Shown here: one piece after another, positions 54,033-55,351 of the stretch
How positions within the stretch are numbered: the first letter of the stretch is position 1
Layout of the letters: each line of letters starts with the position of its first letter
Assembly (NCBI RefSeq): GCF_017357385.1
Contig: NZ_CP071632.1
Coordinates: 1,927,501 to 1,991,500, forward strand
DNA length: 64,000 bases
From: Rhizobium sp. NZLR1
Lineage (GTDB): Bacteria > Pseudomonadota > Alphaproteobacteria > Rhizobiales > Rhizobiaceae
Direction of reading: 5' to 3'
The notes under the pieces: model-generated
The model's database searches: none
What the model saw: only the letters and a program-made list of their open reading frames with translations
Told to the model about the DNA's origin: nothing
Position numbers and translations under genes: made by a program

Positions 54033-54118
54033 TGTCTTTTTCCTCTAACATATGTCCGCTGGATGGCGGGATCGCCTATCTCTCTGCGGTTGATGTTTAT
54101 ATAGGCGAGAACCGTCCT

Positions 54119-54164
54119 ATTGTGCAGTGCAAATAAAAGGCGTCTGCCATGCAATTGTGCAGTG
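54119..54164. promoter_or_regulatory. Direct repeats ATTGTGCAGTG upstream of the first DUF1127 gene
   Basis: Two identical 11-mers (54119-54129 and 54154-54164) spaced 35 bp centre to centre. The first continues as TGCAGTGCAAATAAA; almost the same element (TGCAGTGCAATAAA) recurs at 55129 before the sRNA gene. On the minus strand a TATATAA box follows about 23 bp downstream of the first copy. A LysR-type activator site is a likely reading. Confidence 0.5.
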
Positions 54165-54257: not shown

Positions 54258-54290
54258 CGAAAACGCCCGCTGTGGGTACAGCGGGCGTTT
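54258..54290 (-). terminator. Terminator downstream of the second DUF1127 gene
   Basis: AAACGCCCGCTGT (54290-54278 on the minus strand, written as AAACGCCCGCTGTACC) pairs with ACAGCGGGCGTTT, followed by TCGTTTG. It closes the transcript that includes the CUCCUCCC hairpin at 54301-54327. Confidence 0.78.
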
Positions 54291-54300
54291 CAATCAGAAC

Positions 54301-54327
54301 GATCCTGCTTGGGAGGAGCAGCGGATC
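54301..54327 (-). ncRNA. CUCCUCCC hairpin in the 3' region of the second DUF1127 gene
   Basis: On the minus strand GATCC-GC-TGCT-CCTCCCA-AGCA-GGATC forms a stem-loop that exposes CUCCUCCC. It lies 8 bp after the DUF1127 stop codon and just before the terminator. This is the arrangement of cuckoo-type RNAs processed from DUF1127 transcripts, but here with one hairpin only. Confidence 0.6.
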
Positions 54328-54334
54328 GCCTGGA

Positions 54335-54481: not shown

Positions 54482-54910
54482 GTTAAGCCCCTTTCTGAGG
54501 GTTTCATCTGCCAGCAGCCGCCGATCGGCGCTGACCTCTATTTGATGACCAGAATATATGTTGCGGCGCGAAAGACTAAAACAGCCAAGTTTTCAGATCA
54601 CCTATGCGATGCATGCAATGCTCTAGGGGTGTTTGACGCAGATTTTCCGTTTTTTGGTCAACGAATAGGCAGAATGGCTTTCAGGAAAGCAATCCCGTTT
54701 GGAGGACCGAACCGGTGCCATTGCTCAAAAACGCCGCTGCTTCCGGCGGTTCCGCCCATATATCCGCTATAAGAACGCATTCCGCCGCCGGATCGAAGTT
54801 GCCCATCTGTCCGCAGCGTTGCCGGTGCGGTGTGACGGCAATGCGGCAGGCCGGCGCCAAACGGCGGAAATCCTCGGACCGCCAATGCTTTAATTCAGTT
54901 TTTGCCGAAC

Positions 54911-55100
54911 AAAAACGCCCGCCGGGGGAGGATCCGGCGGGCGCGTTATGGTGACCGGCAACTGGGAGGAGGAGTGTTGCCAGCCTATCGCAGCGCGCTG
55001 GGAGGAGGAGTGCGCGGCTGCGAATATCGTCACGGACCAAGAGATCCGCGGGCGTCCGGCTGAAGCCGGGCCGGGGCGCCATCCCCGTGCTTCTATGGTT
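54911..55100 (-). ncRNA. Cuckoo/alpha-r14-type small RNA with three anti-SD hairpins
   Basis: Hairpin 1 (55020-54991): CAGC-C-GCGC stem with loop ACTCCTCCTCCCA. Hairpin 2 (54981-54957): perfect GGCAAC/GTTGCC stem with the identical 13-base loop. Hairpin 3 (54942-54917): GCCCGCCGG/CCGGCGGGC stem with loop ATCCTCCC, followed by GTTTTTG as terminator. Repeated CCUCCUCCC loops can pair with Shine-Dalgarno sites and define the cuckoo family (Rhodobacter CcsR1-4; alpha-r14 sRNAs such as S. meliloti NfeR1). A TACTAT box (55112-55107) places the 5' end near 55100, giving about 190 nt. It lies beside two DUF1127 genes, the known genomic partner of cuckoo RNAs. Confidence 0.82.
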
Positions 55101-55128
55101 CGATAAATAGTATGACTAATGATTATTT

Positions 55129-55138
55129 TGCAGTGCAA
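55129..55138. promoter_or_regulatory. TGCAGTGCAA element upstream of the sRNA
   Basis: Identical to 54123-54132 upstream of the first DUF1127 gene, with matching flanks (TTTAT on one side on the minus strand). It sits about 17 bp upstream of the sRNA -10-like box, the position of an activator site. Confidence 0.5.
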
Positions 55139-55351
55139 TAAACTCATGAGTGATATGCGATCGGCGCATACCTCTCCGTCCATATGCTGATATTAGCGCT
55201 TCTGAGGTTAGCGGCCGGTTAATGCTCGGTACAAGTTAGACCAATGAGGAAGTTGTATATTTGCGCAAGAGCGTTTGCGAACACCCGTGCTGCGTCTATA
55301 ACGGCGTGAGCCGTAGCGCCGCAGCGGCGTTGCGGAAATGAGGGGTGGAGC

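Follow-up and report, generated by a model that had tools for sequence, protein, structure and literature searches.

An αr14-type small RNA beside DUF1127 genes in Rhizobium sp. NZLR1, and its possible origin from a DUF1127 mRNA

In a stretch of 64,000 nt from Rhizobium sp. NZLR1, hereafter the window, a region on the minus strand had been predicted from its letters alone to encode a cuckoo-type RNA that displays an anti-Shine-Dalgarno (aSD) motif in three hairpins and lies beside genes for small DUF1127 proteins. The locus raises the question of what this RNA is, and of how RNAs of its kind came to be associated with DUF1127 genes. To the first part the answer is that, by its sequence, the feature is a free-standing rhizobial αr14 sRNA, a further member of a published family and, viewed as an sRNA, an unremarkable one; the family, the three-hairpin aSD design and the link to DUF1127 are already in print. 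The second part required a comparison of related loci.

The window RNA, its hairpins and its copies

The Rfam covariance model for αr14 (RF02344, ar14) matches over its full length (model positions 1-123 of 123) at window positions 55028-54910 on the minus strand, with 109.5 bits against a gathering cut-off of 58.8, so that the search proposed with the original prediction bears out an αr14/cuckoo-type RNA; elsewhere in the window, only three tRNAs score above an Rfam cut-off. The predicted fold consists of three hairpins (-60 kcal/mol, z -7.0), none of 200 shuffled sequences being equally stable; the three-hairpin sequence is present on the minus strand as first described. Loops 1 and 2 are indeed identical over 13 nt, ACUCCUCCUCCCA, and both read ACTCCTCCTCCCA (Table 1). 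The motif had been said to appear three times; all three loops do carry it, unpaired, but the terminator loop (ATCCTCCC) has CCUCCC only, leaving two copies of the full CCUCCUCCC.

Table 1. Features of the αr14 locus and the adjoining DUF1127 genes, in window coordinates
Feature	Position	Strand	Basis
LsrB-type site TGCG-N6-GCAT, one mismatch to the published NfeR1 site TGCA-N6-GCAT	55155..55168	-	sequence; published motif (PMC10746234)
Conserved box TTGCACTGCAAAA over the -35 region (CTGCAA, 55133-55128)	55126..55138	-	conserved in related loci
Predicted -10 CTATTT, 17 nt from the -35; predicted start ~55097	55105..55110	-	promoter profile
ORF-less 5' leader with three small predicted hairpins, outside the Rfam model	55029..55097	-	conserved in close species of the genus
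αr14 sRNA (RF02344), body	54910..55028	-	covariance-model match, 109.5 bits
Hairpin 1, loop ACUCCUCCUCCCA at 55011-54999	54988..55023	-	fold and covariation
Hairpin 2, loop ACUCCUCCUCCCA at 54975-54963	54953..54985	-	fold and covariation
Intrinsic terminator (hairpin 54944-54915), loop AUCCUCCC at 54933-54926, U tract	54910..54944	-	sequence, fold, covariation
DUF1127 small protein gene, 48 aa	54335..54481	-	PF06568, E 1.6e-15
3' UTR of the 48-aa DUF1127 gene: single hairpin (54332-54295), loop GCUCCUCCCA, then terminator	54260..54332	-	sub-threshold ar14 match, 34.6 bits; fold z -6.3
Related promoter/box of the second DUF1127 gene, exact TTGCACTGCACAA at 54120-54132	54096..54132	-	profile, E 4e-4
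Second DUF1127 small protein gene, 47 aa	53889..54032	-	PF06568, E 3.3e-13

By itself the 8-mer CTCCTCCC is not rare, with five occurrences in the 64-kb window against 2.3 expected, a count reached by 8 of 100 shuffles. Unlike this count, the placement of the motif in loops is beyond chance: among 91 triple arrays, selected in 151 loci solely by the spacing of their motifs, with the first array of each locus taken, 86 have all three motifs in hairpin loops, compared with none of 455 controls whose letters outside the motif had been shuffled. For covariation we aligned the array of the window, without the 3' end of its terminator, with 25 of the 91 arrays (26 rows in total), hand-picked from the clade without a DUF1127 ORF and near it and including two arrays coupled to such an ORF, and counted pairs in the consensus structure of the same sequences. 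Paired cells make up 96.2%, 106 cells are changed on both sides, none of 500 shuffles scores as high, and both-side changes occur in 21 of the 34 stem pairs. Sliding the partner by one to three columns lowers pairing to 32-51%, a comparison in which a structure taken from the same sequences somewhat favours the true register. The rows are related sequences, yet double changes in such number are hard to explain without stems. The original prediction had described conserved loops on stems unrelated in sequence, and had let its case depend on these stems covarying among related genomes; the stems do differ, yet they covary.

It had also expected standard ORF annotation to leave the region empty or to call a false protein through it. 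Two ORFs, of 133 and 97 aa, run through the region; since they have no Pfam match and the indels of the leader are not multiples of three, with no frame kept among relatives (by eye), they are very unlikely to be proteins, and we rejected a protein-coding reading.

The source genome holds six ar14 matches above cut-off and one slightly under it (56.4 bits). In a scan with stricter filters, matches at E 0.001 or better were found in all 37 sampled genomes of the genus; 9 of 24 from other families of the order have a match, and 38 of the 61 genomes overall have one above cut-off. In the family, 86 of 111 genomes contain the three-motif pattern (gaps of 15-45 nt) and 1 of 111 the reversed control. 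In a class-wide sample that had just three other genomes of the same order, the triple motif was found in 4 of 289 genomes including the source, against 2 of 289 (G305 and G396) for the reversed control; the matches in G147 and G262 look like short repeats, and the remaining one is in G394. Three αr14 copies (L004, L005 and L006, on contigs C2, C3 and C4) have four aSD-type hairpins each, with one motif shortened in C4, and their arrays begin ~200 nt past the stop of a small DUF1127 gene, after a terminator-like hairpin (by eye). As a side observation, a weak ar14 match of 33.9 bits with one CACCTCCTCCC hairpin (L010, G000:C4:284247-284346) is possibly a decayed αr14 copy.

Promoter, leader and neighbouring DUF1127 genes

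Related arrays are preceded by a recurring block made up of TGCR-N6-GCAT, then ATATTGCACTGCACAA or a similar sequence, then a CTATATT-like -10 and often TCATCG; TGCR-N6-GCAT is present in 12 listed related promoters. A profile of such promoters from 11 other genera, with the window excluded, finds its best match in the 64 kb at 55169-55100 (E 1.5e-11) and its second best at 54132-54096, ahead of the second DUF1127 gene (E 4e-4). Its matches to the other five αr14 copies of the genome are weak, at 2.4 to 7.8 bits. Within one mismatch, the TTGCACTGCAAAA box likewise occurs at only two places in the window, here and at 54120-54132. In the NfeR1 promoter of Sinorhizobium meliloti, TGCA-N6-GCAT is the LsrB site, reported at -72 to -60 (PMC10746234). 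With the start set relative to the LsrB-type site as in NfeR1, transcription is predicted to begin at ~55097, with a leader of ~70 nt that is absent from the Rfam model.

Twelve close species of the genus share this leader with good conservation and six others with less; it varies by indels and has no common frame (by eye). One of its small hairpins (55086-55073, minus strand) reads GGGG-AUGGCG-CCCC, and the aligned stretch in other members of the genus is like CGGC..GGUGGCGC..GCCG; judging from these sequences, the loop core RUGGCG seems to be kept while the stem changes. Searched with up to three mismatches, the Brucella VtlR box has no match at the αr14 locus. Across the window as a whole there are eight such near-matches against 2.5 expected, above all 100 shuffles.

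The DUF1127 genes of the window follow the αr14 array, behind its terminator. The genome has ten DUF1127 genes above cut-off. Five encode small proteins of 47-48 aa, and of the six αr14 copies four are found within ~1 kb of such a gene. A gene matching the nearer one of the window was found in 22 of 30 genus loci, window included, and 17 of these 22 retain CCTCCC in its 3' UTR (by eye). The five loci without it (L082-L086) have three full motifs in the sRNA instead of two.

Coupled and free-standing arrays upstream of trmFO

We compared the region upstream of trmFO in 72 loci, namely the window and 71 other genomes, nearly one per genus. These 71 come from 78 genomes with a trmFO match; the other seven are the source genome, for which the window itself was read, G017 of the same genus, G095, G102, G111 and G124, which are cut off upstream, and G125, which is partial. 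A DUF1127 ORF ends 19-93 nt (mostly 20-33 nt) ahead of the first hairpin in 45 of the 72 loci, which we call coupled; 15 are free-standing, G083 being so labelled only because its contig ends and G107 despite a DUF1127 ORF that ends 212 nt upstream, while two have both kinds and ten no array. The original prediction had placed cuckoo RNAs beside DUF1127 genes, which is correct here but an understatement, since in the 45 coupled loci the hairpins directly follow the ORF. Arrays of both kinds share, by eye, a recurring outer part of hairpin 1, GAATT(T)CG-CGAT, and a terminator around CGCCCGCYGG-ACCTCCTCCC-CCRGCGGGCG, and on these sequences they look homologous.

On a TrmFO tree of 71 rows, from which G079 is absent because its protein was not extracted, 13 of the free-standing rows cluster with four coupled, one mixed and two array-less rows in a single group of 20 (support 97); the free-standing rows G062 and G083 lie elsewhere. 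The labels free and coupled each require fewer changes on this tree than in all 500 shuffles, and coupled, free and mixed together require five. A second set with named species (80 loci and the window) gave 23 coupled, 15 free and 43 without an array in the fetched stretch, after L251, with a second array behind a coupled one, had been relabelled coupled, and L268, with two motifs 74 nt apart and no DUF1127, relabelled as having none. Coupled arrays occur in Phyllobacterium, Mesorhizobium, Brucella, Chelativorans, Oricola, Aurantimonas, Aureimonas, in Roseibium, Labrenzia and Pleomorphomonas, which we take to belong to other families, and in some less well-named species. Free arrays were found in Sinorhizobium, Ensifer, Rhizobium, Shinella, Pseudorhizobium, Ciceribacter and Endobacterium, as well as the window; the array-less loci include Agrobacterium, and Bradyrhizobium with DUF1127 alone. 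In this set a single change divides coupled from free, the free rows forming one side of a branch (support 92, not starred).

Several loci stand out in other ways. L237, from Agrobacterium tumefaciens, has two DUF1127 genes upstream of trmFO and no aSD array within 3 kb. In other genera we observed tandem arrays of eight or more aSD motifs upstream of trmFO (L186, L201, L205, L256, L248 and L289, with 11 in L205), possibly with a dose or sponge function. In two members of the genus (G008 and G029) trmFO and an ar14 copy share a strand but are ~5 kb apart, a distance that may reflect an insertion between them.

From these comparisons we lean slightly towards the view that the αr14/NfeR1-type sRNAs of Rhizobium and its relatives are DUF1127 mRNAs minus the ORF: the LsrB-type promoter and the 3'-UTR array would have been kept, joined by an ORF-less leader, and a sister copy in the same locus would have kept the ORF and only one aSD hairpin (window 54332-54295), thus dividing a two-function mRNA (small protein and 3'-UTR sRNA) between its descendants. 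The ORF would have been lost in the clade of Rhizobium and Sinorhizobium. Since coupled arrays are spread over the tree and, in Rhodobacter sphaeroides, processing of the 3' UTR of ccaF1, a DUF1127 gene, is reported to yield the CcsR RNAs (PMC8625941, PMC10253847), the simplest order is coupled first and loss of the ORF later. A profile of 12 free-standing promoters, window included, has matches before the coupled DUF1127 ORFs of G072 (41 bits), G105 (39), G073 (36) and G079 (31), the first three of which belong to the group of 20 with most of the free-standing rows, G079 not being on the tree. In loci outside its training, and with a threshold of 10 bits, this profile has matches before 7 of the 47 coupled DUF1127 ORFs and before 6 of 17 others, and in 0 of 1280 shuffles; that most coupled promoters do not match counts against ORF loss. 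So does the result of a search for a DUF1127 remnant in three frames of the leaders of 16 loci, which detected none (best E 0.3), so that the case for ORF loss rests on order, promoter and phylogeny. G073 was considered as a start-less intermediate and rejected, as its open frame contains an ATG.

The opposite course, in which the free-standing form is ancestral and an independent sRNA was fused to DUF1127 genes, is in our view unlikely, although it would account for leaders without an ORF remnant, for a free-standing promoter profile that matches just seven of the 47 coupled ORFs, and for the five changes on the 71-row tree. It is set against the wide occurrence of the coupled form in the named loci (with Roseibium, Labrenzia, Pleomorphomonas, Aurantimonas, Brucella and Mesorhizobium among them), to which the literature adds Rhodobacter, and against the confinement of the free form to one side of one branch among named array loci. 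If ORF loss is indeed what happened, ccaF1-CcsR of Rhodobacter and NfeR1 of rhizobia, so far studied separately, would be two states of one ancestral unit, and the locus would offer a traceable case of an sRNA born from an mRNA by loss of its ORF. Such a split of a two-function mRNA between descendants would also explain why one LysR regulator (LsrB/VtlR, which we take to be orthologues) controls both the sRNA/NfeR1 and DUF1127 genes. VtlR is reported as a positive regulator of DUF1127 genes in Brucella (PMC12595884) and as an activator of atu1667 of Agrobacterium, an orthologue of two Brucella VtlR targets (PMC7486931). Our searches of open-licence literature brought up no description of loss of the ORF as the route to these sRNAs, and the original cuckoo paper may say more.

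Proposed function and relation to known systems

Very probably the window region acts as a free-standing, trans-acting αr14/cuckoo sRNA, a unit of promoter, leader, hairpins and terminator whose loops pair with Shine-Dalgarno regions. By homology, transcription would begin at ~55097, driven by a σ70-type promoter that carries an LsrB-type activator site, run through the short ORF-less leader, two hairpins and the intrinsic terminator, and end at ~54911. The stems would hold the pyrimidine loops CCUCCUCCC open, as the covariation supports, and the loops would bind several mRNAs at their purine-rich Shine-Dalgarno regions and block their translation, as is reported for NfeR1 in S. meliloti. There, NfeR1 silences ntrB and other mRNAs via aSD seeds, its three motifs being redundant as confirmed genetically; LsrB is its activator and NtrC its repressor (PMC10746234, PMC7143759). 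NfeR1 has ~122 nt, and only one of the six copies in S. meliloti was reliably detected on Northern blots (PMC7143759).

The gene after dusB in the source genome, taken as ntrB from its position, has the start region GGGAGGCGGCATG, that is, GGGAGGCGGC-ATG. Ahead of this ATG, GGGAGGCGG is complementary to the CCUCCUCCC loops at 8 of 9 nt, a value that none of 46 crude gene starts of the window reaches, and ntrB is the best single candidate target among those looked at in the genome. The original prediction of a regulator with multiple targets would draw on the NfeR1 work in S. meliloti and on this one consistent site. A genome-wide count of perfect 9-nt complements located 3-11 nt upstream of an ATG showed no enrichment (2 sites, compared with 6 in the reversed control), and pairing would therefore need shorter or imperfect seeds.

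Two other functions deserve consideration. The repeated identical loops could mainly titrate an RNA-binding DUF1127 protein like CcaF1 rather than pair with mRNAs, in analogy to CsrB, which titrates CsrA. The persistent linkage of the arrays to DUF1127 genes would agree with such a sponge, as would the tandem arrays with nine motifs behind a DUF1127 gene in G132 and G099, and for CcaF1 both RNA binding and a contribution to the maturation of CcsR RNAs have been reported (PMC10253847, PMC8625941). We nevertheless regard titration as improbable, given the reported silencing by NfeR1 through its aSD seeds, with genetic confirmation of its redundant motifs (PMC10746234, PMC7143759), and reports that other DUF1127 proteins work by protein contacts, with RNA binding contested (PMC12501420). 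A cis-acting role, in which the structure would sit in the leader of the mRNA for the downstream DUF1127 protein as an attenuator with a uORF, appears more remote still: a DUF1127 ORF does lie ~430 nt downstream on the same strand, and an attenuator of this type has been described for a S. meliloti DUF1127 gene (PMC12218461), but the strong terminator at 54944-54915 intervenes, the leader has no common reading frame (by eye), and in 45 of 72 loci the array stands directly after the DUF1127 ORF, not before it. The trans-acting reading remains the one that we prefer.

Compared with αr14/NfeR1 (Smr14C2) of S. meliloti, the window RNA agrees in its full-length match to the model, its three hairpins with CCUCCUCCC-type loops and variable stems, and its terminator; an LsrB-type promoter site, with one mismatch to that of NfeR1, and the presence of several copies per genome are further likenesses. 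It differs from NfeR1 in the predicted leader of ~70 nt ahead of the model, in the half-site TGCG in place of TGCA, and in a third loop with CCUCCC only. The start predicted from promoter homology, ~70 nt upstream of the 123-position model, would speak against orthology with NfeR1. Another copy of the genome, L001 (C1:468306-468427), has TGCA-N6-GCAT 66 nt ahead of the model start, and it is therefore L001, and not the window copy, that resembles NfeR1 at the 5' end. On these sequence features the window RNA is probably an NfeR1 paralogue with an extra predicted leader.

The cuckoo RNAs of Reinkensmeier and Giegerich (2015) reportedly have two to four adjacent hairpins with CCUCCUCCC loops, with three- and four-hairpin members. 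They are associated with DUF1127 genes as the 'CIN1 locus', according to a paper that cites the cuckoo work (PMC10253847). The window RNA shares with them the adjacent CCUCCUCCC-loop hairpins, the third shortened, and the association with DUF1127. CcsR1-4 of the ccaF1 locus, which are counted with the cuckoo kind (PMC10253847), are likewise small RNAs tied to a DUF1127 gene. Unlike at that locus, there is no DUF1127 ORF between the promoter and the hairpins of the window, and its DUF1127 genes lie downstream, behind the terminator; the CcsR-like order, with the array after a DUF1127 ORF, is found in the Mesorhizobium, Phyllobacterium, Brucella and Roseibium loci. For an sRNA arising from an mRNA, a work of 2022 on a different gene is, by its title, a precedent.
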